64,000 nucleotides of DNA. It comes from a virus. The notes under the pieces are model-generated. The model saw only the letters and a program-made list of their open reading frames with translations. It was not told the DNA's origin and did not search any database. The position numbers and the translations under genes were made by a program. Every line of letters starts with the position of its first letter. The first letter of the stretch is position 1. Below, one piece after another: positions 15,177-58,627 of the stretch. The stretch spans positions 114,321 to 178,320 of the IMG/VR virus record IMGVR_UViG_3300029998_000013, one strand, 5' to 3'.

Positions 15177-18100
15177 TTAAGGAATAGCTGAAATAATTGT
15201 TGATTTAGCACTTCAGTTTGTTGCTACTTTATAAGCATTTACACTTGCAGTTGGTACATAAATATGAATTAAATTATTAGTGTAAAGAAAATTACCTGCG
15301 TCTAATGTAGGCGGAATAACAGTTTTAATAGTAACTGTATTTAACATTGACTGATTAAAAAATATAGATTGTAAAATAGTTTTAACTAGTCTTCCAAAAG
15401 TAACTGTTTGTAAATTAGAATTACTTCCTACAAAACCATCTTGAAATGTTGCACATATATTAGGTAATATAAAAGTTTGTAACCTATTTAAACTATCAAA
15501 TGAATATTTAGGCATTACATTATCTTTCGTTATTCAATATTTATTTCCACTAACATTATAATAATTTCCATATGAAGTTATTCTAACTCCTGAAATATCA
15601 ATATTTTGAAGATTTCCTCCAGTAGTAGAAGATGCCATTATTTTAAGACAACTAATATCATCACCGTCAATTGTTCCAAATAAATTTATAGACGTTAAAC
15701 TTAAATAATTACTTCCTAAAACAGATCGTAATGTTCCAAATTTTGTAACAACCGTCATTGCTAATCCGAGAATTAAAGAAGAATAAGTACTTCAATTAGT
15801 TTGATAGTTTGAAACACTTGTAGTTCTAACATTAATAGTAGTTAAAGCAGGACAATTATTAAAAATTGTTGTTCCAATTGCAGGAGCACTACTCGGAAGA
15901 GATTTAACTTTTAACAATCCTGTACAACCATTAAAAACATTGTTTCCTAAAGTCGTAGTATTATTTGGAATAATTACTTCAGTTAAACTAGTACAGCCTG
16001 CAAAAGCAGAATCTCCAACTGTTGTGCAATTATCAGATATGAATATATCAGTTAATCCCGTACAACCATTGAAAGCGTTTGCTCCAATTGAAGTTACTCA
16101 ATTTGGTATTATTAAATACCTTAATCCAGTGCATCCATTAAAAGCATTTGCTGGAATTGTTGTAATTCCTTTAAAAAACTCAAACTCAGGAAATGTAGTT
16201 ATTGTAGTTTGTCCTTGAAATACAGTTCCAATTGTTGTAGCAGTGTTTAAATCGTCTGGTTGAATTACTCCATCAACATTTGTATCAAAATTATTTAAAC
16301 ATAAAGTTCCAGTTGCACTATCCTCAAAAGACATTGTTGTTACCATTCAAGATGATTGCGTACTTCAATTTGATGCAGATTGGTAAGCTGCTAAATTTGC
16401 AAGCGGAACATATATTTTAATTGGACTCATTGCATTAAATACACCAGTTCCTAATGTTGGTGGTGTTGCACTTTTACAAATTATATATTCTAGGTTAGAA
16501 CTTGATTGAAAAGCATAACTACTAATTGAAGTTACACTACTTGGAATCACCACTCTTCTAAGATTAATACAAGATGAAAATGCATTATCACTAATATTTG
16601 TTATAGAATTTGGAATTATAATCGAACTAAGTTTAGTACAACCTTGAAAAAATGCCTGAGATAACATAGGAACATTGTTTGGTAAAACAACATTTATTAA
16701 TTTTTCACAACTTTGACAAACACCTCTATTTAAATTAGTTATATTATTATTAAAAAGAATAGTTTCTAATTTTGTATAAGAAAACATTACTGAACCAAGA
16801 GTATTATTAATATCAATAGAATATCCGTTATAATATGATCTTCCGCCAGCTTTAACATTAGCAGCAGATATATCAAGATAATATAATTTGTATAATTTTG
16901 ATAATTCTCTTATTACATAAACATCATCTCCATTAAAATCTCCTGTAAGTTTTAAGAAAGTTAAATTATAAAAATCATTAATTTTACTTTCTAAAGTTCC
17001 TGCAGAAGCTACAGTTATTGTTCCAATTGGAAAAATAATACTTGCATAACTTGACCATGTTGTTTTATATAAATCTATACTTTCGTAAGGTACATATATG
17101 GCCGTTAAATTAGTCCCACTAAATACATTAGAACCTAAAGTAGGTGGAGTAGAAGATCAAAAAGATATATTAGTTAATGCTATACAATTAAGAAATGCAT
17201 TATCTCCAACATTTGTTATACCACTTGGTAAAACAATTGAATTTAATAAAGAACATCCAGAGAATGTATTATTATTAATTATTGTTAATCCAGAAGGTAA
17301 TTTGATATTTGTTAATCCACAATTTTCAAAAGCATTTGTTCCAATAGTTAAAATATTATTAGGTAATATAATACTTCCAATTAGATTAGTACAGCCACTA
17401 AATTCAGAATTATTTAATAAAGTTAATCCAATAAAGTGATTAATTTCACTAAATGAAGTAATTCCAGTATTTCCTTGAAAATGATTAGCCAAAGTTGTAA
17501 TTGCAGCAACTTCATTTCCATCAACTATTCCATTAACATTTGTATCTCAATAAGTATTAAATACAGTATTTACAGCAGATGATTGAAAATAAGCAGTTCC
17601 AATTGTTATTGGGATTGATTTATATTTTACTCCATTATAATAAGCATTTAATATTTCAACTCCACTCATCGAATTAAAACTTGTGGTACCATTACCATTA
17701 ATAGTAATTTTACTATTTGTTGCAGTTCAAGTAGTTCCTGTTGATACGCCAACTGTTACAACACTTTTTACATCAGTATAATCTTCAGAAGATTGTATTA
17801 TTACAGGTTCAGAACTACCAATTATGGCATCATAAGTTTCTAATCCTTTTGGAATTGGATATCTTCCAGAATTAAATACTCAGTTTGTATCAGTAAAACC
17901 AACTCCAGAACTTCCAGTTCTCAGGGCTGTACCTATTAATTGCAGAGTTGTTTTTTCTTCAATTTGATTAGTAATATCTAATTGTCTTCCTGGATTTTTA
18001 GCTACTTGTTTATCATAATAATTTGACAATAGTGTGCTAGATACTATTGTTTCATTAAATAATCCGATGATACTACTACTGTAAGTATAATATAAATCTC

Positions 18101-21100
18101 CATAAACTTTTCCTAAATTTAAATTGTAACGAATAGTTCCATTAACAGAATCCCCACTTATAACTTTTCCCACAATTCCACCTATATATTCAGCAGTTGA
18201 ATAAATTAGCCCATAATTAGTATTGTATTCAACAGTGCCAAATCTTATACTTCCTAAAATTCCACCACTTCCTTTACCTGAAACATTTCCCAGATTTGAG
18301 CAATATCTAACTCCACAACCATCACCAACAATTCCCCCTGCTATACCTGTAGTTGCATTTATATTTCCAAGATTTATACAATATTCAACTCTTATAGAAT
18401 TATTTTGAGAACCTCCTGAACTAGTTCCTAAAATTCCACCTGATCCATATTGTGAAGTAATATTAACTTCATTTATACAATTACTTACTATTATATTTAG
18501 TTCTCCAGCAGATCCTACTATTCCAGCAACATTAGAATAACCACTTATTGTTCCAGAAGAATAACAATTATTAATTAGTGAATTTATTTTAACACATCCA
18601 CATATAGCCGACATATAAGGTTGAGTAGTGGTAGATAAATTAACATTTGTTACTTTTAGATTTTGTATAACTGTATCAGATACAAAACCAAATAAAGCAT
18701 TTCCATTAACGCTAGGATTCTTAATATAAAGATTACTTATCGTGTGATTATTTCCATTAAATTGTCCTAAAAAACAATAAGAATAATCATTTCCAATGGG
18801 TAACCAATTTCCAATTCCTACACCACAAACAGTATTTAAATTTATGTCAGTAGTTAAATTAAAAATAACAGAGGCCGCCATTGCAGGTAAATTAAATCCC
18901 TTATAATTAAACCCTATATGAGAATTTACTCCATCTCTAAGAGATACTAAATCTGATACAGAATCAACAGTTGTAGTTAATAGTATAGATAACTGAGTTG
19001 ATTTATAAATAATTCCATTTTTTGCTGTGGTTATAATTTCAGTTCCTGCACCAGTTATATTAACTGTGCCTAATGTATTGTTAATTTCGAGTGTATTATT
19101 AGTGTCATTTCATTCCACATTATCACCAACTCCTACAGTAAAAGCATTTACATTAGTGTAGTTAATCGAAGAATCTAAAAGTATAGTTTTAGATCCTGCG
19201 ATGGCATCATCATAAGTTTCTAATCCTTTTGGAATAGGATAAGCTCCAGTAGTAAATATTCAATTATCGTCAGTTCATCCAGCTCCAGTAGATCCACTTC
19301 TTAATGAAGTCCCAATTAACTCAGAGGTTAATTTACCTAAGCAGTTTACAGTATCAACATTAGCTAATCCTTTTAATAAAGTAAATTGTTTATCATAATA
19401 ATTTAATATTGCATCACTTACTGTTTCTGCAATACTACCTCCAGATGTAGTACTATAACCAGATGTATTAACAAAATTAGTATTTAAACAAAATTTAATA
19501 CGACCAGAATACCCAGCCCCATTAATATATCCTGCAATACCACCATATCTTCAATTACTAGCAGCAGTTATAATACGTCCATTATTTATACTATATTCAA
19601 TATATTCTAAATACGTAGCCATACCAATAATTCCTCCTATACTATATGCACTACTATTAGTTGTTGTTATTGCTCCATTATTAATACATTTAGATATTTT
19701 TAATCATTGACTTATAGTATTTCCACTAATTCCTCCCATATAAGGACTACTATTATTACTTGACAAAGAAGCATTATTAATACATTTCGAAATATTTAAA
19801 GTAGTTCCTCCTAGACTACCTATTAATCCTCCTATATATTGAGCTGCTGAAATGGTTCCACTTACTCTGCAATTTGTTATTAATGCTCCTGCAATTGCGT
19901 CCATTTGTCCAATTAATCCTCCAACATAATATTGAGCATTAATCATAACATTTGTTAATGTAATATCTTGTATAATACTACTACCTGATACATATCCAAA
20001 TAAACCTATATAATTACCGCCTGTATTATTAAAATATAAATTACTAATAGTATATCCATTTCCATAAAATTTTCCTTTAAAATTATTCGTAGCATTACCA
20101 ATGGGAATTCAATTTCCAATTCCAGAGCCACAAATCGTACTTAGATTTAGGTTATTCATTAAATAAAATGGAGTATTTAAAGCATAAGCTGGAACAGTTG
20201 CACCATTATAATTAAACGATACTCCAGAATTTACTCCATCTCTAAATGCAATTAAGTCTGCAGTTGTATAAATTTCAAATTTTAATTCTAAACCTATATT
20301 ATAAGTAGTATCAATAAGAGAAGATGCATAATTAAATGTTTTAGTTACAGCAGCATTTCCTCCAACATTTCCATTAAGAGCTGCATTTGAGCGTAATGTA
20401 ACTACTCCTGAGCCATTAGCATATACTTTTTCACTTCCATTTAATTGTATTCATGAATTAGTAGGAACTCCTCCTAAATCATATGTAATATTAAAAGTTC
20501 GAAGTGCTAAAGTTGTTACAGTTGTATTAATAGTTCTATTAATTGTAGAAGTAAAACTTCCACTATAGGATTCATGAATATCTGCACCATATGTAAATGT
20601 TACATTAGCACTTACTTCAGTATAAATTTTATAAATAGAATCAGAAATTTTTACAAAAGTTTGATTAGAACTAAAATTAGAATTTGTTAATGTTAAACCT
20701 CTAGATGAAGTAAAAGTTAATGTTGTTTCAACTAATCCTCCTCAATCTGTGGGAATTGTATAATAATCAGTTAATCCTGAGCAGTGATAAAAACAACCAG
20801 TATGATTTGTGATTGCTGTTCCTCTTTCTCATAGTTGAGTAGTTCCATTATGAGGTGATGCAGAAGTAATAGTAGAACAACTACTAAAACAATCAGTGAC
20901 ATCAGTCATAGTTAAACTAGCAATAAAGTAATTTTCAATATTAGATAATAATCCGCAATTTTTAAATGTACTATTAGCTGTTGTAAGAGTTGAGATATCA
21001 TCAAAAGAAGTACAATATCTTAAACTACTATTTTTAAATGCTGAATTAGCATTAATTAAACCGCTGTTTCCAAAGAAATGTGTTCCAATAGTATCTATTT

Positions 21101-24100
21101 TAGTGCTATTTTCAAATAATGAGGCAATTGAAGTTACTCTAGTAGATTGATACATAAAGTAATTACCAATTGTAGTAATATTAGTTCCTGTAAATATTCC
21201 ACTAATTGTAGTAAGTCCTGTATTTCCTCTTAAAAAATTATCACTAACATTTATAATAGCATTGTTAGAGAAAACTCCAGCTAAACTATTAATTAAATGA
21301 GACGCATATACAAAGTTTATAGGTGTAGTGACAAAAGCAGTTCCATTAAATACATCAGTTATTGTTACCAATAAAGGACAATTAGATAGTAAATTACTTT
21401 CAACTGAAGTTAAATTATTAGCTCCCATAAATAATCCAGAAACTGTTGTAAGTTTAGGACAACTTTGTAAGAAATTATTTCCGACTGAAGTTAGTCCAGT
21501 ATTATTTTGAAAAGCATTAATAGCTGATAATAACTCAGATGAATTTTGCATTACATTATTTCCAACATCGAATGATCTTGTAATTCCAGCAAATGCTGAA
21601 TTTAAAGAAGTAATTTTATTATTAATTAAGAAATTATCTCCAATAGTGCTTATAATACTATTTGCAAGCATATTTGTTGCACTATTAATAGATGGATTTG
21701 TACTTAAAAAATTATTAGGAATATTAGCAATTTGAGTATTACTAAATAAATTATTAATATTTTCTAATATATTGTTTATAGATCCACCAACTGAATCACT
21801 TAATAATATGTCTGAGTTAATTATAGATAAATTAGTTAATCCTAAATCAGAAAATTTAAAACTGCTTAATTGTGTAGATCTTAGAAATCCTGATGGTAAA
21901 GTATTAATATTTAATCCATTAAAAACTCCAAAAATTGTATTTAATGATCCGAGTTCAGAGATAATACCTGATGGAATAGACGTAATATTTGTTCCACCAA
22001 AAGCATAACTTAAATCTTCTAAATTAGAAGCTGTTTCAAATATAGAACTAGGAATAGTAGATAAACTAGAATTATTAAATAAATTACTAGCATTTAGTAA
22101 TTCTGGACAAGTTTGAAATAAATTAGATTGTGTTGAAGCAATTCTACTATTTTCAAACATACTTGAAGCATCTCTTAAATCTGGATTATTTACAAATAAA
22201 GATCCTGTAACATTTAAACCTAAATAAGTTCCATCAAATTCACTATTTGTATTTACAATGTTTGCAAAACAATTAATAGCAGTAGTGATTGGCGATGTTA
22301 AAAATAAATTAGCAGGAATATTAATTAATTCAGCCCCATTAAATGCATCATCAATTGTTCTTAATTTAGGACATTCTGAAAATACATTTCCAAATGTAGA
22401 TTTAAATACATTATGTGAAGTAATTCCTGTAATAACATCTCCTGTATAAACTGGAGTATATGTTTGAAGTCTTGCTCCCATAAATATTTCAGAAATATCT
22501 TCTAAATTATCAAATTTAACTAAAGCTCCACTCGGAATATTTGTTAAATAGGTACAATTTTTAAATAATCCCTTCATTTCAACTAAAGCAGTACAACCTT
22601 TTAAGAATGACGTGCTAATTGAAGAAATTTTAGAGCCCTCAAACAAGTAATTTAAGCTTGTTAATCCAATACAATTTTCTAAAAAATTATCATTAATTAC
22701 TACAGCATTTTCTCTATTTCTAAATAGATTTTCAACAGTAGTTAAATTAGGACAATTTGATATATTTAACGAATTTAAACTTGTAAAGGATGTTTCATCA
22801 AAAGTTAAATTAGTTAAACCTGTATTATTTATAATTGTTAATGTTTGTAAAGCAGTATATACATTAGCTAAGTTAAATCCTAATGCTGTTTCAGTTATAG
22901 AAGTGTTAGATATATTTAATGATGTAATTATATTTTTAGTAAATAATAATGAGGTTAAAGAGTTTAGTCCATCTACATTAATAGCTTGTTGAAAATTACA
23001 ATTAGTTACATTAATAATCTCTAATCTTGGATTAGTTGAGAAACTTGTTACTTGTACAGCAGAACTTGCAGCGTAAAATTCTTTAAGTCTTAAGCAAGTA
23101 TTTAAACCTACTAAGAAAGGAGTTTGACGTCCTAATCCACAACCTGTTAAATTAAGAATTTCAAGATTAGTTGTTCCAGTTAAATTTAAATAAGAGTTTT
23201 GATCTGTAAAATTAGATATACCACTTAAGTTTAAAACTTTTAAATTAGGGCAACTACTAAACTTACCAGTTTTTAAAGCTATATCATTTAGTCCTTCTAT
23301 TTCAGTAATTACTCCACTATTATAAATTCTTAAAATATGTTGAGTAGTATTTGAGTAGCTATAAGAAAATTCAACTACTGCATCACCACCAGCACAATGT
23401 TTAGACATTACTTGGTTTTGAGCAAATGAAACTCGTATAAATGAGGCTATAGCAGTTTTAATTCTTAAAGTAACAGTTCCATTATAGAAATGTTCAACAT
23501 AAGCCATATCATCAGCATCAGGAACATATCCCATAATACCATCAACATAGTCTAGTCTTTTCTTTAAGAAGTTCTTCATAAACATTAATTTATTACCTCT
23601 AGCATTAGAGATATAATTGCGTTTATTGTTTATATCAGGATCTCCATCAAAACCAATATATTTATATACTGCATCTTTATTAAAATATCTTTCTCCAATA
23701 CGAGCAACCATTTGTTTACTATATGTTTGAAGAATACTTGAATAATCAAAAGGTGCAGAAATTCATGAACTTGGTTCTCTTGTTCCTTTTAATGGGTCAT
23801 ATGTACCAGAACGTAATTCTTGATAACGTCTTGATAATGCAGGTCCATAACATTTTGACATCCTTTTGAAGAAGTTAGTACCAAAACAGTTATATTCCCA
23901 ACCTGAAGTTGGTGTTGCTGTAAAATAGTTTTGATTAGGATCTTCTCTATTAGCTCCAGCAATTGTATAAGGTCATTCAATATAAGGAGTTGCATATAGT
24001 CCCCCTTGTACGTTAGTACCAAAGGCAGTATCTATATCATAGAATACAGGATGAAATTTAATTCTTTCTCTATTCATTACTCCAGGAGTTTCTGTTTCAA

Positions 24101-27100
24101 CAGAGTTTTCATCCCAACCTAACATAGTTAAGTTACGACCAACACTATCAGTTAAACAGAATGTAAAACAACATAAAACATAATCAATACAATTTCTTAA
24201 ATCAAAGAATTTTTCAAATGTTAAACTATCAGCAAAAGCTTCATCAGTTGCATTTGCCATCCAATAAATTGCATTCAAAAAGTCAGTATGTTGTTGTGTA
24301 GCAAATATTGCCTTATTTTTATTAATTCTATAAAAAGTTGATCCAGGATTAGTTAATGAAGGAAGTGTTGGACTATACGTTTCAGTTCTTTCGGACTCAT
24401 TTGCTAAAAGTGAAGTATAGTAATCAACTACTTGATTTCCCGATCTATCAGCTTTTCCTGTCGTTTCTAATTTATCTCAAACTCAACGTAATGTTTTTGT
24501 AGAATTAGGAGCATTTAAATCAAGTTCATGAGGATTAATTAAATTATAAGTTCTTGTTCAAACTCCATTTAAATATTCTTCTCAATGTCCAATTCCAAAA
24601 TCACCCGGATCTCTACATTCTCAGTCCATTACTAATTCAGCACCTTGTCTTCAAGCTAATTCTTGAGCATCATTTGTCTTATTTCAATAGTCTACTCCTT
24701 GTTGCCAAATGTGTTTTTCAGCATTATAAATTATTCCTACATGAGATTTATTAGTTGGGGAAGTTCCTAAATTCGAACCTTGATCATCAGTTGCATATCT
24801 GATTAAAGTATATGTCCCATGAGAATTTGAAATACCTTCAGAAATACTAATAGAAGATCATGTATAATCATGATAATCAGTTGATTTAATATTAGTTGTT
24901 TTATCAACAGCTATGCCAATATATAAGTTACCAATAGGACTATTTTCGAATTGTGTATTAGTTTTCGAAACAGAGTATACAACTCATGTATATTTTCCAT
25001 TTGATTGTAGTAAACCTTCTGATGAATTAATTGGAAATCAAGTATAATCAGATGCTACTTTATTTTCAAAGAGTTCATTATTTTGAGCTGTTTCAATATA
25101 TGATGTTGATAAAACTCTTCCATAATAATCAACTAATAACTGTTCAGAACGCATATCAAGAAATTTACAATAACCAGATCTTAATTCTTCATGAACAGAG
25201 TCACCATTAGATTCAGAACGATAAATATAATATCTTCTATTAGGATCACTCTTTTCACTAGGCATTGAATATAACTTTCTATGCTGCTTTAAATTCCAAG
25301 TATATAATCCGGTAAATCGTTTTGAGTATCAAGTTTGATCAATTTTATAATCTCCATTCATAATAAATGGAAATCCATCAACAGCTAATCTTAATGGATA
25401 TACTGGATATCTACTTAAGTTATCAACTACTGTATCAGGACGTGTTACTGTATAATTTATAAAAGGATTAGCTCTACCAAACACAGGAGTGAATTGTTCT
25501 GCACCTTCTGAATTTTCTCAGTTAAATGGATATCTAAAGACTTGTTCTGATAATTTTGCTATAATTAGATTATTACAATGTGAACTATCAATATAGTTTG
25601 CTTTTAAATGATAAGAATCCCAATCTGGTCATGGTCTAACAATAGGATCTCCATTATTATAAACCATATTATAAAATTTTGGTGTTTTAGTTTGAGTTAG
25701 ATCTCAAGCTTGACCATCAAAAATATCAATACCATAATTCTTAATAGGATAAGATAATGATGAATTACCTTGTAAGTCAACATCAACTGGAAAAGGCATA
25801 ACCATAGTTTGATAAGCTCCATCAAATTCTCCTATAGCTTGAGGATCAGGGATATAAGTATCAGCAATGTTTTCTTCGTTACCAGGATTAAAACTTAATT
25901 CTAGTTGAGTCATAATATCTTTTTGTATAGCACTTCGATCACCCTCCATATAACCAGAGGAAAGAATTGGGGTAGCTACACTATTAAGTTCTTCTAATAA
26001 TGCCCGTCCCCCATCTTCAGGATAACATGCAATATAATTAGCTAAAATGTCATCAGTTGTTAAACAAGTCTTATAAACTCTTAAAAATCTAATTTTTGTT
26101 TCAGCAATTCCTACAACTTCTCCTAATAAATTTTTATAACCATTAATATAAATATGTTCGTCAGCTTGAGTTAAGAATAATTCTTGATCAACAAATGTTC
26201 CAAATGATGAAATAACACCATTTAAATAAACATATACTTCTTTAGTATCTATATTAAAAGTAATAACAACATGAGCATATTCTTGACCTTCAACTCATTC
26301 TCCATTCTTAGTAAGTACTCTACTATCACAGATAATAGGAACACTAATATTTGTTGATAATCCATTAATTCTTAACTCATTTGCAGTTACATAAATACCT
26401 ACAGATGGAGTAATTTCTGGTCTACCAATACTTAATTGATAAACCCCTTCTCCAACTAAAGCACCCTCTCTAATTGAGAATTCAATAGTTAAACCAGTTG
26501 TATTATTTTCAAATCCTGCAAGTGGTGCATAATTAACTTCAACATAAGCTGAACCATTCATTGAAAGATCATCACCTAAATGTTGATTTGCTCCAGTAAT
26601 TTCTCAACCATTTAATTCAGTATTAAATCCGTTAAGAACTGCATAATTATCTGGTAAATTTAATGTATATTTATTTTCTCATAATCCTCAATTTGGAGAA
26701 TTATTAGTTTTACCTTTAGCATTTAGATATAATTCTAATTTAGATATTGGTGTTTCTAATACAATATAAGAAGATTTTTGTTGTAATGATAGATTTAATA
26801 AATTAGTATTAGCCCAATAGGTTTCATTTTCAGGTAACTCTAATAGCTCTGACGTGTATCTTATTGAGATACTATTTCCACTATCAGGTAGTAATAATAC
26901 TACTTCATTACCTTTTTGTGAAAGACTTGGTGCAGAAATATAATAAGGACTAACTCTTAATCCATTAATTTCTAACCATGCTTTAGATTGATAAGTATAT
27001 TGGCCAATATATTCTGAATTTTCATCATAATAAATGTTTACGGGAAGTACAATAGTATCTCCAACATAATATGATAAATTAGTATTAAAATCTGTAGAAG

Positions 27101-28082
27101 AATATAAAATTCCTGATTTATTTACAACAATGTTAATAGTAAGAGTATTAGAAATAACTCCTAATCCAGTTGCTGAGATTGTTAAATTATAATCACCAAT
27201 TTCTGTAAACTCTCTAGGTATAGTATAGTTAACAAAGAATACTTGACCTGATATAAAATTTGCATCATTTGGAGTAAGTTTGTAATTAGAAACTTTATCA
27301 ACTACAGCTGCATAATCTTGATAAACTAAATGTCCAGAATTATTTGGATCATCTACTAACATTCTTCCAGATAATGTATAAGTTAAATCAATTGTATTTA
27401 TAATAGAAGACACTCCAAAACCAACAACAATAGGTGTATTTTGTCTATATGTTTGTTCAGACAAAAAGTTTGAAGTTAATGTAATTGTTCCAACTATAAT
27501 AGTTAAGTTTAAAGTTGCAACTGAAGACTTTCCAAATTTATCTGTTACGTGAACATCAGAAAATACATAAGTACCTTCTGGTAATGTTACTTGATATAAA
27601 TCTGAATCAGGATTATAGTACTCACTTCCATAAATTAAAGCTGTTAAGTTTAGAGTATTATTTCCATTATGTAATCCTGATAAAATAAAGGAAGTTTGTC
27701 CTTGTGCAATGTTAGGATTAGTTCCGGTTAAAGTTAACTCTCCTCCTTCGGCATCGAATAACTCAATGTCTAAAAGTAACTCATCACCTATTTTATAAAT
27801 AAATGTTGAGTTTTTAATTTTAATTATTGGTGCTGTATTATTTGTTGGAGTTGCTGCACCATATTCTGCTATATATTCAATTAATGCTTCAATAGAGTCA
27901 ATTACAACACTAGTATTAGAATCAACAATAATAGTTGTTCTTCCTAATTTATTTGTTAAAGCATCAAATGTCTGTTGTAAGGTATCTGCATTTTCATTAA
28001 TTGCTATAACTACAGCATTAAATTCAGGTGCTGTTAAAGTGCTACCTTCTACTTTTGTTGGTATGTTTAAATGTGTTGTCAT
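15177..28082 (-). CDS. Giant multidomain tail fibre/adhesin, 4301 aa (many TGA=Trp)
   Basis: A dozen open fragments share one frame from ATG 28082 to TAA 15177, separated only by TGA; the long gaps I checked base by base hold no TAA/TAG. Residues 1-60 resemble phage fibre attachment regions (PTKVEGSTLTAPEFNAVVIA). Residues ~85-460 are Ig/cadherin-like beta repeats. Residues ~470-660 are ConA/LamG-like. Residues ~900-1440 include a CotH-like motif (DSVGRN near 1304, FYDIDTAFG near 1350). Residues ~1457-2420 are ~25-residue leucine-rich repeats of BspA type. Residues ~2600-3400 are two GLUG-like modules. Residues ~3400-4301 are BspA-type repeats with two DTNxDG EF-hand/dockerin-like loops. Probable receptor-binding fibre; N-terminus would attach to the tail. 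Fusion of bacterial-surface-protein modules suggests transfer from Bacteroidota. Confidence 0.8.
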
Positions 28083-35789: not shown

Positions 35790-38012
35790 TTATTCATTTT
35801 TAATTTCATCATTACGAGGATTAGTATCAAGTAATTGAATAGCCTCTAACTGAACACGTTTCTTTTCCCACTCTAATTTTTCTTCATTATATTTACTTTC
35901 ATCCTTAGCTTTAAATCATTCTAATTCTTTAGTAAATTGAAGACGATCTTGCTCTAATTTAATTTTCTCTTGATTTAAGAATTCAACTTGTTGTTTAAGT
36001 TTTTGAGCTTCAGAAGATACTTGTTGAAGTTGTTGATTTAATTGTTGAGCTTGTTGTTGTAATTTATTTAATTGATCATCCTCTTTCTTTTTCTTCTCAA
36101 TAGATGTTTTAACATCTTCTTTCATTTTTGTTAAGCCAGTTGCAGTAACGATTTCTATCAATGTTACTGGATCAATTAAATTATTCTTTGTTAACTCCAT
36201 ACCTAGTTGCTTAATAATTTCTTGTTCCTTAATTACTTCAGAACTATCAGAAATATTAATATCATAATCAGTTACTGAGTAATGTTCGGGAAGTGCTGTA
36301 AAGATTTTATTTAATTTTTCACCTAAAACTAAAGTTCCAGAAATACCATTTTTATAGACACTCTTAGTTAAATTTAATATATCTAAAAGAATTTCTCGTG
36401 TTAATAAGTCCATTACTTGATAATATTGTTTTGTAATATATCCAGATTGACGAACTCCTACTTGAACATTTGTAACAGCATCTTTTTGTTCAATTCCACC
36501 AAGTTTTTCTTTAAACACACCTGTAATCATAGAACAAGTTTCTTCATTTCTTTGAATAGCTAGATCAATAGCTTGAATAGTTTCTAATTTAATCGTATCA
36601 TCATAACCATTAAAAGAAGTGTTTCCCATAGGTAATCCTTCTTGAGAGGAATCAAATAATGCAATTCCAGATTTCTTATAAGCTTTTCACTTCATAAGTC
36701 TGTCTGCAGTTGTAGCTCCTAAAAATATAGGAAGATGAGCAACATCTAATCAATCTCCAGTTCCACCGGATTCAGAAATAACGTTATCTCTATAAAAATA
36801 AAGAACATCATTCTTATCTTGTAAATTAGCAGTCTTTAAAATTAATGAATATGGATCTCCATTTCTATCTGAATAGAATAGACCATTTACAGATAGATCA
36901 CATTCATATGGACTATCCATACTACGAATTGGATTCTCAATTTTACCTGTTGTAATATAAATTAAAGTTCCTATACGAGTCCCTTCATATCTATTAACTA
37001 CTCAGTTATCTCCCTCTTTTTCAGTTTTTAATCACTCTACATCATAGACTGGAAACAATCTAAAATATTTGGATGTATTGCGTTCAAATGGCAATAGAGG
37101 AGTTATTTCAAATCCACCTAGAATACCATCTGATATGGTATTTCCAGTTGTACTATCATAACTTCTCAAATATGTAGTTGTTGATCCATCAACAGAATAG
37201 TCTTGTAAATTTTCAAGCTCAGCTAAGTCCTCTCTTTTAAGATCTTTTCCATATTTAGCTAAGATCTGATCTTTAGTCATATAACGACGAATAACAGATC
37301 TATAAGACTTTTTAAGGTATGGTGACTCAGGATTTCTATCAATAAAAGTATTAATTGGATTAAGTACTTCTAATTCAATGTTAGTGTTACTTGGTGAAGC
37401 AAAGACTTTATAATAACTTGTTCCACTAATTAATAGATCAGTTAATAATAATTTTCTTTTATTACTAAAGTCTACTGCTCTTGATTGCATTGTTCAATCG
37501 GTAATATTTTGTCCAGCAATCTCATAATCTGAAATAAAATTTCTCTCAGTAGATTGTTGTAATTCATCTAATTTAGATCCAACTTCTGCATTTGGGCCAG
37601 CTGGTCCAGGAGTTCCTGGGCCTTGTTGATCATTAATAGCACTATATAATGTAGTTTTTAGATGGCGATTTAATTCAGCAGCCATTACATTATTTACTTG
37701 GATTTGTCTATCCTTAAAGATACTTGATAATGTTTCTTTATCTTTACAAGACACTCTAGGAAGAACAGGTGTTGATAAGTATTCACCAATTAATACATCA
37801 ATATGTTTTCTAGTAAGAGGAACAAATTCTACTGAAGTAGGAGTTCCAATTCCATAATTTTCTTCCAGATGTCTAAATTGTTCTGGATCTCGTTTACCAT
37901 GATAATAATTATATGCCTTAATGATTTGAGTCTTTTCATAGACTAATTCATTAATTGCTCTATCAATATTTTCAATGATTTCTTGTTCTGTATTATTCTT
38001 CTTTTGAGTCAT
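35790..38012 (-). CDS. Portal protein, 740 aa (TGA=Trp)
   Basis: ATG 38012 to TAA 35790 with TGA at 37494 (AGQNITDWTMQSRAVDFSN), 37032 and several others. Features fit a crAss-like portal: helical N-terminus with AYNYYHGKRDPEQFRHLEEN, the segment GTPTSVEFVPLTRKHIDVLIGEYLS, a basic central region, and a long C-terminal coiled coil rich in Gln/Lys/Glu (residues ~620-735) as in portal barrels. It lies directly downstream of terminase and one small gene. It would form the dodecameric DNA channel at the capsid vertex. Confidence 0.75.
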
Positions 38013-38265
38013 TTGTTCTAATTACTTTATAAATGTCTAGTCTCATATAATTTCTACTTCGTAATTCTGCATATATGAAATCTAAAAACTCTTCGTCTGT
38101 TTCACAGTCAATATTTAAAGTAGTTGGTGTCATATAACTTGGAATACCAATAGAAAATTTATATCCAGGATTTAATTTTTCTACAGTTAATAAGCCAATA
38201 TAATCAGCTTTATACCAAGTCTTTATATATTCACGAATCGTCTGAATTAATTCTTGTTCTTGCAT
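37993..38265 (-). CDS. Small protein between terminase and portal, 90 aa
   Basis: ATG 38265, TAA 37993. It overlaps the terminase 3' end by 56 nt and the portal 5' end by 20 nt in different frames. Acidic C-terminus (RTNDSKEE), one TGG Trp (YIKTWYKADYIGLL). Conserved position suggests a packaging or portal-associated role, but I do not recognise it. Confidence 0.55.
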   Translation of the reverse strand: MQEQELIQTIREYIKTWYKADYIGLLTVEKLNPGYKFSIGIPSYMTPTTLNIDCETDEEFLDFIYAELRSRNYMRLDIYKVIRTNDSKEE

Positions 38266-40297
38266 CTCGTTCTTCTATTGTTTTTGGTATTATACCATAA
38301 TGTTTATAACCTTTACTATCTTTATATCAACCTATGTCTTCGAATTTTTTACCAATTGGTTCTCTTGCAACAGGTTTCCTAACTGATAATTCTTCATCAC
38401 CTAATTCCGCCATACCCATTGCTGCTACAATATCAAACTCTTTTTTCTTTTCATCAGAATATTCTAGCAACTGTTCTACAATTTCTCTATAAGCAATTGT
38501 ATAACAATAATCTAAACAAAAATCGTAAATTAATTCTCGATAATGATCAATAACTTTAGGACTTGTTGGAGCTCCATACATATTTGCATTACCTTTTGTA
38601 ACGTCAGACATTGTAGATCTCGGCCTTTTCATTAATAAATGAAGTAATTTTTGATCTCTAAAGTGAGTTAAGATAGCAGTTCTCGAAGATTCTAATACTG
38701 CTTGGCAGCCATAATGAGTTAACATCTTTGCAGCTATCTCATAAGCCTCTCTAGGATCTCTTGGTCTATCTTTATATAGTGCAACATAACATGGATCTGA
38801 AGTTCCAAATACCCTTTTCTTAATTACTATACAAAATTGTGATGGCTTTTTATCAGTTCCAGTAGAGTCTGCAGTTCCTATATCAATGGAGTCAATGCCA
38901 CCAACATATAAATTTCTATAAGATGTTTCTGCTTCTGAGACTAATGGTTGTTCTAATATAAGAATCTTTCCATTCTCATCATCTCGAACTCACTTTGTTC
39001 CAATAATTTGATCGTGTTGATCTCGAGTTCAAATTAAATGTCCTCTAATAGGTACTGGAACATTTTTATAAATATCAATTCGAGCGGCTTGTTCTGCTAA
39101 TTCTTCACGAGGAAACATATTATCACCTTGTTGAATTAAAGCCTCTTCAATTGTAAAACAATATTCAGCTTTATAAATTAATAATCCCTTAGGATCTTCA
39201 GCCTTTAATCGTCTTTGATATTCATAATATTCTTTAGCTTTCTGTGGATCGCACCATCCGCGCTTATCAAGTAAACTAATTACCATTCGATAAGCTGGAA
39301 TAAACATTGCAGTTTCTATTGTGCGACCATCAGGAGTATAATTATGTCTATAACGTAATACATTATATGCATCAGGCTTAGTAACAATATCTTTAATACC
39401 TTCAAGTGCTGGACCTTCGTCTCCTCCAGTTCCTCATACAATTCTAGTTCCTACACGCTCTCCTCCTAATACAGTTATTAAAGCTTCTCCTTGTAGATAT
39501 TTTTTCTTTAAAACTTTATCAGATCCTGCTTCTTCAAAGAATAATCGTTCAACACGGTCACCTCTAATTTTTTCTGGAGAATCGGCAATTACACCCTCAA
39601 TTTCTGACATATGTCCCATCTCAACTCCATCTCGTGTTTTTACAGAAGCTCTCTTATGACTATTTGTATTAATAACCATACGAACTCTTTTAAATGCACC
39701 TTCAGTTTCTTCATTTAAATAATCAAGTTGAAGCCAAATTTTTGTTAGCAATGGTTTAAGATGTTTTTCAGAATAGGCTGACGCAAGCACACGATAGTTT
39801 GGCGTCGTTACAAATGGTCGAGCACATAATTCTGCTGCCATTTCCGAAAAGCCCAAGGCACGAGCCTTAACGAGTGCTACATCTTTTCCCAAATATTCAC
39901 ATAATTCAACATAATGAAAATATTCATATTGAAAAACTAAGAACATTGGGAAGCTAATCTTTCTACCAGCTGACGCTTTAGCTCCTTCAACAGATGATTT
40001 TAATCTATAGAAATTTAATCAAAAATAATTATCACCAGTAATTCTATAACCATTGATAGTTAACCCTTCAGTACATCGTTTAAATCTTTCTTTTCAAAAT
40101 TCGATGTATCCTCGAGAACCATAAACAGTTTTACTATATTTACCTGTTTTAACTTTAGTAATTGCATCTTCACGAAACAAATCAGGATCAAAATCAAGTC
40201 CTTGAGATTCGTTTATAGGTCTATAACCAGTTATTTCATATGATAGTGTAGGATCAAAACATTCAATCGAATCACCCAATTTTATATCTCAGTCCAT
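38210..40297 (-). CDS. terL: Terminase large subunit (TerL), 695 aa (TGA=Trp)
   Basis: Five open stretches join through TGA from MDWDIKLGDS at 40297 to TAA 38210. The ATPase part has a Walker A-like KARALGFS (residues 144-151), a Walker B with catalytic Glu in LFFEEAGS (252-259), and the coupling-type motif VWGTGGD (288-293), whose Trp is a TGA. The nuclease part includes GGIDSIDIGTADSTGTD with the expected acidic residues. About eight Trp are TGA and two TGG, so TGA is the preferred Trp codon. Motor that packages DNA into the prohead. Follows the 197-aa gene by 2 nt. Confidence 0.9.
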
Positions 40298-46068: not shown

Positions 46069-46761
46069 TTATATTTGGTGTTCTCGTAAAACTGCTAAAA
46101 TATCTTTAATAATTGGATTCCTAACACTATCACTATCTTCAAATTCTACTACTGAAACTACAGAACTATCTTGAAAAATCTTTGCAACTTTTAATAAACA
46201 AGATTCTTCAATTTTTTTTCTATCTACTTGTTCAGTATCACCTAGAAAAATAAATTTACAATTACTTCCGATACGAGTAATTAAAGATTTAAATGTATGG
46301 GTATCTATGTTCTGCGTTTCATCAACAATTACTATACAATCGTCTTGTGTAACTCCACGTACATAAGCTATAGGGAGAATATCTATCAGACCTTTCTTAA
46401 TAAAGTCATTTGATACACCTTTTTTGGCAAATAATTTATCTATGTTACCTGTAAAAGAAACAATATAAGGTTCCATTTTTTCTTCCATAGATCCTGGAAG
46501 ATAACCAATGTTTTCACCTGTAATAGTTTGGACTGATTTTACAATTACAATACGTTTATACTTGTTTCCAAGTAATCCAAATGCTGTTCCTAAAGCACAA
46601 TACGTTTTTCCCGTACCTGCTGGACCTGTGCAGATTGTTATTTCGCTGCTAGTAATAGCATCACGAAACTCTTCTTGTTTGTCGTTCAGACAGTGAAACC
46701 TGTGTAAATTCTGAACTTGTTCGTCTGGGACTCGTCCCTTTTCTTTGCCTTCTTTTCTCAT
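46069..46761 (-). CDS. phoH: PhoH-like P-loop ATPase, 230 aa
   Basis: Walker A GPAGTGKT (residues 46-53), Walker B IVIVDETQN (144-152), and the conserved PhoH segments RIVIVKSVQT, GYLPGSMEEKMEPY and RIGSNCKFIFLGDTEQVD are all present. Length is that of the PhoH core domain. PhoH proteins are RNA-binding ATPases and are frequent in phages of Bacteroidota. A phosphate role is not demonstrated. The gene is bracketed by terminators on both sides, so it likely has its own promoter in the 46762-46820 gap, where a palindrome is present. Confidence 0.9.
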   Translation of the reverse strand: MRKEGKEKGRVPDEQVQNLHRFHCLNDKQEEFRDAITSSEITICTGPAGTGKTYCALGTAFGLLGNKYKRIVIVKSVQTITGENIGYLPGSMEEKMEPYIVSFTGNIDKLFAKKGVSNDFIKKGLIDILPIAYVRGVTQDDCIVIVDETQNIDTHTFKSLITRIGSNCKFIFLGDTEQVDRKKIEESCLLKVAKIFQDSSVVSVVEFEDSDSVRNPIIKDILAVLREHQI

Positions 46762-46821: not shown

Positions 46822-46846
46822 GGGCCGCCTAATAACTAAGCGGCCC
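46822..46846 (-). terminator. Terminator downstream of tRNA
   Basis: GC-only 7-bp stem (46822-46828 with 46840-46846) with an 11-nt loop, followed on the minus strand by TACTTTTTAAAA. It would end the transcript carrying the 70-aa gene and the UCA tRNA. Confidence 0.85.
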
Positions 46847-46921: not shown

Positions 46922-47017
46922 TGGCACGGGTATCAGGACTCGAACCCGAATAATGAAGTTTGGACCTCCACGTGTGGTTTTGAAGACCACTTCTATTCCC
47001 AATAGGAAAGTACCCGC
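46922..47017 (-). tRNA. tRNA with UCA anticodon and long variable arm, probable opal (TGA) decoder
   Basis: The 96-nt minus-strand fold has a 7-bp acceptor (47011-47017 with 46926-46932), discriminator G, encoded CCA (46922-46924), T-arm with TTCGAGT loop and 5-bp stem, and a perfect 5-bp anticodon stem (46986-46990 with 46974-46978) around CTTCAAA. Anticodon is TCA (46981-46983), which reads UGA. A 24-nt variable region forms a 5-bp arm, making it class II (as tRNA-Ser, -Leu, -Sec), not the class I form of tRNA-Trp. The D-arm can pair in more than one way. It lies 7 nt after the 70-aa gene, on the strand of the recoded genes. Confidence 0.85.
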
Positions 47018-47024
47018 ATATTGT

Positions 47025-47237
47025 TTAATTTAAACTATCAATATAATCAATGTCTTTAAGTAGTTCCTCAAAGTCAATCTTACTAATTGGCCCAATATAA
47101 TATTTTCCAACAGTCTTGTCCGGATCATTAAATACTTCCATAGTATTTCCATCTATTCTTACCGTCCAGTCATTTCTAGTCCATTCATTTTCATCTATAT
47201 CCTTTGTAAAGCCATTTTTTCTTAAAATCATTTCCAT
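47025..47237 (-). CDS. Small acidic protein preceding the tRNA, 70 aa
   Basis: ATG 47237 (or 47231) to TAA 47025; two TGG Trp (NEWTRNDW). Beta-rich centre (VRIDGNTMEVFNDPDK) and acidic helical C-terminus (FEELLKDIDYID). Not recognised. It is the only gene on the transcript that also makes the UCA tRNA, so it could be linked to the code switch, although nothing in the sequence shows this. Confidence 0.55.
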   Translation of the reverse strand: MEMILRKNGFTKDIDENEWTRNDWTVRIDGNTMEVFNDPDKTVGKYYIGPISKIDFEELLKDIDYIDSLN

Positions 47238-57888: not shown

Positions 57889-57985
57889 TTGACAGTAGCT
57901 CAGCTTGGTTAGAGTGCAACATGGACAAAATCCTTGAGGAGTTTGGTCTATGTTGAGGTCACAGGTTCAAATCCTGTCTGTCAAT
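57889..57985 (+). tRNA. tRNA-like element with 29-nt anticodon loop
   Basis: 7-bp perfect acceptor (57889-57895 with 57978-57984), D-arm GCTC/GAGT, 5-bp anticodon stem CAACA/TGTTG (57917-57921, 57951-57955), 5-nt variable loop, and a T-arm ACAGG-TTCAAAT-CCTGT (57961-57977) are canonical. The anticodon loop is 29 nt instead of 7. It folds into a continuation of the stem capped by TTGA. No CCA is encoded. It is either a tRNA with a short intron-like insertion or a non-decoding tRNA mimic. Confidence 0.6.
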
Positions 57986-58627
57986 CAATATTATAACAAT
58001 TACTACCAGTTCCATGGCGGACCGAAGGATGCTATCTGGTAGGGTAACTCTTGCACGTACGGGGCAAGGGAGTCAGATTATTGTTATTGTTTTCTTTAGC
58101 GTGCTGCTAGCTTCACTAGGCTCAGTAGACAATAGAGAGAGCATAAATCCCCGACGCAGCTTTTAGGGACTTATTGCGCTAGCTGCTATGACAACCACTC
58201 CAGGTTGAAGTGCGTGAAACTCGTAACTTACAAATCTATGGCATTCTAAACCATGAGGATTTGTAATCCGTAACAAGCCCTGCCCACATGATGGGATTTG
58301 CGCAAGAGTCGGACCTATAAAGCAAAGTAGATACAACTTGAAGAGAGCCTATGAATTCCTTCTCTTGAGGGTGAAAAGGTGGAAATATTATCATAACCTA
58401 GGAAGTGTGGTACTAAAGTAAATGTAATCTAATGTGTCAATTCATACCTGCATTAGTGCATTTGTTTTTGCTTTTAACTATTAGAAAGGACGTGATCATC
58501 GTCGTATCCCTAAGCAAGGAGAAAAACTGCAGTTACAGGTTGGGCGTCTTTAGATTATATCTAAGGAAGTCCTCATAGAAGTCAGCGATGCGCAAGCTAG
58601 CTGTGCCCAGTAACAAAAAAATTCTGG

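Follow-up and report, generated by a model that had tools for sequence, protein, structure and literature searches.

A phage opal tRNA with a second, tRNA-Trp-type anticodon loop in its variable arm

Introduction

How does a UCA tRNA with the outline of a serine or selenocysteine tRNA serve a phage whose genes appear to use TGA for Trp? The question is raised by a tRNA gene in a 64,000-nt stretch of virus DNA, positions 114321–178320 of the 178,320-bp record IMGVR_UViG_3300029998_000013 (this whole stretch is called the window). A first-pass annotation described the gene as the only clear UCA tRNA, with G as discriminator and a 24-nt variable region that has its own stem. An opal tRNA-Trp was expected there to be class I, and two options were offered: recruitment of an unusual TrpRS substrate, or a tRNA of the Ser or Sec type that decodes TGA.

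Opal suppressor tRNAs that insert Trp are already known from recoded phages that use genetic code 4, crAss-like ones among them (PMC7886860; PMC12386605). Some opal-recoded zeta crAss genomes are reported to have no detectable suppressor tRNA (PMC12386605). The main determinants for bacterial TrpRS are the anticodon (CCA) and G73, with acceptor pairs of lesser weight (PMC9976931; PMC12135181). The UCA anticodon of the window tRNA lacks C34; according to a structure paper on E. coli TrpRS, the enzyme need not distinguish C34 from U34 (PMC12135181).

Results

The window's minus-strand late genes are rich in in-frame TGA, and TAG is nearly absent from them. There are eight in-frame TGAs in the gene for the terminase large subunit (38210–40297, minus strand; PHROG 6681), six in the portal protein gene (35790–38012, minus strand; PHROG 6547), and 39 in a late ORF of 4301 aa (15177–28082, minus strand). 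Both the terminase and the portal hits are to PHROGs of the head and packaging class; the best database relatives are crAss-like phages, and INPHARED contained no close DNA relatives of this phage. In an alignment with 54 related IMG/VR terminases, the eight TGA columns showed TGA or TGG, then Phe, Tyr, Leu (one column) and single odd residues; Ser was found in none of them. In those non-overlapping ORFs of the window that have relatives, the most frequent alternative residue at TGA was Trp at 8 sites, Phe at 3, Tyr at 2, Lys at 1 and Ser at 0, most of the relatives compared being recoded too. Because TGA and TGG swap freely and the substitutes are aromatic (again among relatives that are mostly recoded), these alignments indicate that this is a crAss-like phage in which TGA is Trp. 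The TGA columns imply a Trp tRNA, not a Ser or Sec one. No phage-encoded RF2 was found in this record.

The opal tRNA gene lies at 46922–47017 on the minus strand and spans 96 nt, including an encoded CCA end, as identified by ARAGORN, by RNA folding (z = -1.9) and by a covariance model of relatives (R1). The molecule has five arms, all given here in minus-strand sense: an acceptor stem, a D arm, an anticodon arm (hp1), a variable arm (hp2) and a T arm. The 5' acceptor strand GCGGGUA (47011–47017) pairs with UACCCGU (46926–46932), starting with G1·U72, C2-G71, G3-C70 and G4-C69. The D arm, CUAUU-GGG-AAUAG (46993–47005), has a 5-bp stem and a 3-nt loop that retains GG, and this form is matched, with compensatory changes, in L188, L194, L157 and L314. 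Another D-arm register, UUUCC-UAUU-GGGAA, is the MFE solution for the single sequence; it was dropped because the relatives covary in CUAUU-GGG-AAUAG. The anticodon arm is GUGGU-CUUCAAA-ACCAC (46974–46990), with UCA at 46981–46983. The variable arm is GUGGAG-GUCCAAA-CUUCAU (46953–46971). The T arm, UCGGG-UUCGAGU-CCUGA (46933–46949), includes the G51·U63 wobble typical of the two-arm family described below, and the discriminator G73 (46925) and encoded CCA complete the gene (46922–46925).

Bacterial tRNA-Trp has a class I variable loop of 4–5 nt; the UCA tRNA has 24 nt instead, folded into a 6-bp stem and a 7-nt loop, with stem pair probabilities of 0.62–0.70 in single-sequence folding. Judged by its sequence, the loop (46959–46965) is a tRNA-Trp anticodon loop, a point overlooked in the first-pass annotation: it equals CUCCAAA save for one change, at position 32. 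CCA is thus absent from the anticodon position and sits in the variable-arm loop, at 46961–46963. The tRNA scored 38 bits against the Rfam tRNA-Sec model (RF01852; gathering cut-off 47) and 25.2 bits against the generic tRNA model (gathering cut-off 29), and Rfam misses it because both scores are below the cut-offs. ARAGORN labels it Sec, but its stems have 7+5 acceptor/T pairs, versus 8+5 for tRNA-Sec. R1, built from 42 relatives without this sequence, retrieved it with 77.6 bits (E = 6e-17), which means that the variable arm did not arise by chance in folding. The earlier description of the gene was therefore accurate in its structural points: ARAGORN, folding and R1 all give the 24-nt variable region with its own stem, the discriminator is G, and no second UCA tRNA, class I or other, was found in the 178-kb record, which may be incomplete.

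Upstream, a 70-aa ORF (47025–47237, minus strand) ends 7 nt before the tRNA, and the two are likely on one transcript. Downstream, a strong terminator-like hairpin (46822–46846, minus strand; 11 bp, then TACTTTTT) lies between the tRNA and the next gene, which encodes a PhoH-like protein (46069–46761, minus strand; Pfam PhoH, E = 2e-52). Two such hairpins were found in the region versus 0.2 expected, and the other one overlies the anticodon arm.

For an unbiased view of variable arms, we scanned IMG/VR for a UCA anticodon arm followed 22–42 nt later by a T loop, leaving the variable arm unconstrained. UCCA was present in the variable arm of 41 of the 55 distinct long-armed UCA tRNAs accepted by ARAGORN. 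The other 14 consisted of 13 tRNA-Sec with 8-bp acceptor stems, none of which has a UCCA variable loop, and the irregular L142 (Fisher p about 3e-12). Among 74 distinct long-armed Leu, Ser and Tyr tRNAs on the same contigs, none has UCCAA in the variable region. Under equal search constraints in IMG/VR, UCA tRNAs with a long arm and UCCA loop are no less frequent than short-armed ones, so the expectation that an opal tRNA-Trp be class I is no rule in phages. A second scan, which required UCCAAA, added further members and brought the family to 55 distinct two-arm UCA tRNAs, which at 80% identity form about 30 clusters; that the unconstrained scan also gave 55 is a coincidence. Separately, one long-armed, non-Sec UCA tRNA of the unconstrained scan that was not accepted by ARAGORN (L191:2905-3002) has a variable arm without UCCA on a body otherwise like the Trp type.

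All 55 two-arm tRNAs have G73, and 48 have A-U or G·U at 1-72. Their hp2 loops are GUCCAAA (24), CUCCAAA (15), UUCCAAA (6) and close variants, so that U33 and CCA are retained, as is A37 in almost every case. Canonical pairs in the hp2 stem average 4.5 of 5, versus 2.5 when the 3' strands were shuffled among molecules, and none of 2000 shuffles reached 4.5. RNAalifold, given 42 members and not the window tRNA, predicted the five-arm fold unaided, and 23 of the 25 pairs showed double compensatory changes; it recovered the hp2 arm with 4–24 double changes per pair. The NUCCAAN loop is constant across three architectures while stems, linkers and D arms vary. The covariation and the constant loop argue that hp2 is a real, selected hairpin. 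The window tRNA has the features that define the family, namely a UCA hairpin, a covarying NUCCAAN variable hairpin, 7+5 stems and G73.

In the T stem, 49 of the 55 two-arm UCA tRNAs have the G51·U63 wobble, as do 7 of 9 phage UCA tRNAs of class I, whereas few tRNA-Sec have it; the wobble may serve to tune binding to EF-Tu. When genome contigs were scanned with the UCCAAA motif required, the matches listed were mostly chance hits and alphaproteobacterial tRNA-Sec, at least five of which (L285, L293, L356, L371, L378) have UCCAAA in the variable-arm region, together with at least three carriers of the family (L314, L347, L351).

A crAss-like terminase was found in 10 of the 49 carrier records and was not seen in the rest, several of which exceed 100 kb; the two-arm tRNA therefore probably occurs outside the crAss-like phages as well. 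Taken together, the carriers use TGA for Trp: the majority other residue at TGA was Trp at 97 sites, Tyr at 31, Phe at 22, Leu at 15, Thr at 9 and Ser at 6. L072, whose two-arm tRNA has a Ser-like body, gave Trp 12, Tyr 4, Phe 2, Leu 1 and Ser 0, and Trp enrichment at TGA was absent from contigs with tRNA-Sec. No gene with a TrpRS/TyrRS fold was found in the 49 carrier records or in this record, so the two-arm tRNA is presumably charged by host TrpRS. One carrier, L314, is located in the genome of Bacteroides neonati, whose tRNA-Trp has G73 and the acceptor ACGGGAG. Compared with it, the window acceptor GCGGGUA is equal at 2-71, 3-70 and 4-69 and differs at 1-72 (G·U versus A-U), although Bacteroides may not be the host.

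In relatives of this phage, UCA tRNAs lie some kilobases upstream of the terminase gene. Several of them are class I, of 72–75 nt. Long-armed UCA tRNAs occupy this place in three lineages, of which this phage and L035, its near-identical sibling, form one; the others are L050/L054 (100 nt) and L072 (93 nt). TGA is Trp in all these relatives, whether the UCA tRNA is class I or long-armed. As a side note, one relative (record G012) has a second, different UCA tRNA of 76 nt (L107:1500-1575, L427:184-259) beside its class I opal tRNA, and A73 with a differing body is seen in further class I UCA tRNAs of phages (L405, L409, L415, L418, L436). To judge by the latter, not every phage UCA tRNA need be a Trp tRNA.

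BLAST searches of phage genomes pointed to an origin for part of the family. In tRNAs of the L158 type, positions 47/50-96 (hp2, linker, T arm and acceptor) align unbroken to ordinary phage tRNA-Trp(CCA). One of these matches, the tRNA-Trp(CCA) of L442, is 74 nt long, and L158 (96 nt) corresponds to such a 74-nt tRNA plus a 22-nt UCA hairpin between the D arm and the CCA arm. By this alignment, each of the best-preserved members is a tRNA-Trp(CCA) that has gained a UCA hairpin in front of its CCA arm. The commonest, Trp-like architecture (26 members) has a canonical D arm and a CCA arm about 4 nt from the T stem, a spacing that resembles a class I variable loop. The window type has the 5-bp/3-nt D arm and linkers of 1–2 and 2–3 nt. 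In a third, small architecture (L072, L138, L150), both the D arm and the linkers, of 1 and 1, are Ser-like. Recent copying of hp1 into hp2 within each molecule was excluded, as the two stems are no more alike within one molecule than between different molecules. That one loop occurs in such unlike tRNA bodies suggests repeated invention or strong selection.

Discussion

We favor the view, and consider it probable, that the window encodes an opal tRNA-Trp with two anticodon-type hairpins, in which the UCA loop of hp1 reads UGA while the CCA loop of hp2, together with G73, lets host TrpRS accept the molecule. The hp1 hairpin, in the anticodon position, would read UGA as Trp in the recoded phage genes. 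The hp2 hairpin, which replaces the variable arm, would display the tRNA-Trp anticodon loop U33-C-C-A-A37 to host TrpRS, and with G73 would compensate the enzyme for the C34 lost from the decoding anticodon. In the Trp-like architecture, the distance of about 4 nt from hp2 to the T arm is kept, as in a normal variable loop, so hp2 could take up the position beneath the D arm, where TrpRS would treat it as the anticodon arm, with hp1 swinging out. The sequences themselves establish the second loop, its conservation, the stem covariation and the Trp meaning of TGA; decoding by hp1, contact of hp2 with TrpRS and a swap of the two arms that sets the hairpin under the D arm in each complex are inferred. 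More broadly, the family may represent tRNAs that split the jobs of the anticodon, with a UCA loop for the ribosome and a CCA loop for TrpRS, possibly by a hairpin swap, and that arose repeatedly, including in Ser-like bodies; we find this wider proposal evenly balanced between acceptance and doubt.

The contribution of hp2 has limits. Some relatives whose UCA tRNA at this location is an ordinary class I molecule also have TGA as Trp, so the second arm is not indispensable, class I UCA tRNAs being sufficient in some of them. The need for help from hp2 is further weakened because E. coli TrpRS may tolerate U34 (PMC12135181). The gain from hp2 may be quantitative, or may consist in protection against mischarging. 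Given that linkers in the window tRNA and in the Ser-like members are shorter than in the Trp-like members, the arm-swap geometry may be limited to some of the family. A further point against the proposal is that at least five alphaproteobacterial tRNA-Sec have UCCAAA in the arm too, although the scan that gave them demanded this motif.

Could hp2 itself decode? One molecule with two alternative stackings might read UGA with hp1 and UGG with hp2, as would fit the continuity of hp2 with the sequence of tRNA-Trp(CCA) and its class I distance to the T arm in Trp-like members. Yet UGG reading is already supplied by a separate, ordinary tRNA-Trp(CCA) in this phage and in no fewer than 12 further carrier stretches, and the ribosome would have to tolerate hp1 between the D and anticodon stems; we regard such dual decoding as unlikely. 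A duplication or insertion origin is also suited by this continuity, and hp2 might be the remnant of the anticodon-arm duplication that made the suppressor, with a long arm that is structurally useful and a CCA loop that is idle. A neutral loop, however, should drift at the pace of its stems. The hp1 and hp2 stems have fully diverged, yet NUCCAA persists across about 30 clusters and across architectures, which makes an idle loop quite improbable.

Phages face tRNA-cleaving defenses, and the CCA loop retains U33 and A37-A38, features typical of the targets of modification enzymes and nucleases. The loop might accordingly be meant for another partner, either as a decoy for anticodon nucleases or modification enzymes that act on tRNA-Trp or as a competitor for TrpRS. 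We think this quite unlikely, as the CCA arm is tied to UCA tRNAs and is found in none of the 74 long-armed Ser, Leu and Tyr tRNAs of the same contigs. Least probable by far is a Ser- or Sec-type tRNA that puts Ser (or Sec) at TGA, which we rejected even though UCA, a long arm and G73 occur in tRNA-Sec or tRNA-Ser and the top Rfam match is tRNA-Sec: the score is below the cut-off, the stems are 7+5, TGA sites in the terminase and the window have Trp and aromatics and no Ser, and tens of TGA per genome, dozens of them in structural genes, speak against Sec. Of the two options offered in the first pass, recruitment of an unusual TrpRS substrate is thus the one that gains support, and the Ser/Sec option loses it.

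The window tRNA shares with known phage opal suppressors the UCA anticodon, TGA as Trp in late genes, a phage-encoded gene and the presumed use of host TrpRS. It differs in that its variable arm bears a second, CCA anticodon-type loop, a feature unmentioned in the accessible portions of PMC7886860 and PMC12386605. Bacterial tRNA-Trp(CCA) and the Trp-like members align unbroken through hp2, a short linker, the T arm and the acceptor, and share G73 and A1-U72 or G1·U72, but the two-arm tRNA has a UCA hairpin before the CCA hairpin, and the CCA arm thus becomes the variable arm. With bacterial tRNA-Sec (RF01852), the window tRNA has in common the UCA anticodon, long variable arm, G73 and tight D arm, whereas its 7+5 rather than 8+5 stems, sub-cut-off score, UCCA variable loop and TGA as Trp set it apart. 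The allo-tRNAs (PMC7590224) are likewise non-canonical class II tRNAs from metagenome mining; in contrast, they have 9/3 acceptor/T stems and Ser identity, and no copy of the anticodon in the arm is described for them. mRNA anticodon mimics are known to bind aminoacyl-tRNA synthetases, for example in a report by Levi and Arava cited in PMC9976931, and they share the principle of drawing a synthetase to an anticodon-like hairpin that lies elsewhere than in the anticodon position. Those mimics reside in mRNA and regulate translation, whereas the hairpin described here is within a tRNA and would serve charging. We found no tRNA described whose variable arm bears a second anticodon loop in the open-access literature searched, including reviews on unusual tRNAs (PMC7609411) and on tRNA identity (PMC9976931).

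If the division of labor were proved, this would be a new kind of tRNA. Synthetases like TrpRS read the same anticodon as the ribosome, and this is the main obstacle to assigning new codons to such amino acids. The two-arm tRNA, if it works as proposed, would be a natural solution and would offer a simple design rule for codon reassignment with anticodon-dependent synthetases. Opal-recoded phage genomes that lack a known suppressor tRNA (PMC12386605) may also be explained in this way, as the window tRNA scores below both the tRNA and the tRNA-Sec cut-offs; the zeta crAss genomes of this sort were absent from our INPHARED matches. With one transcript and one enzyme, both mechanism and evolution are directly testable.

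About 25 further tRNAs are encoded in the 178-kb record, including tRNA-Trp(CCA) and a CUA tRNA. The latter is a class I amber tRNA (L030:6197-6271; record 24197-24271), though the late genes are nearly without in-frame TAG. Elsewhere in the window, at 57889–57986 (plus strand), and also in L100, there is a 98-nt tRNA-like gene that scores 49.5 bits as a generic tRNA. ARAGORN calls it tRNA-Cys(ACA); its body is normal but for an insertion of about 20 nt in the anticodon arm, and the ACA anticodon call is therefore uncertain. The tRNA-Trp(CCA) of this phage (L030:7326-7409) and that of a relative, G002 (L123:10043-10124), have variable regions of 12–14 nt that contain a small stem but lack a CCA loop, a form of variable region that is unusual for tRNA-Trp.
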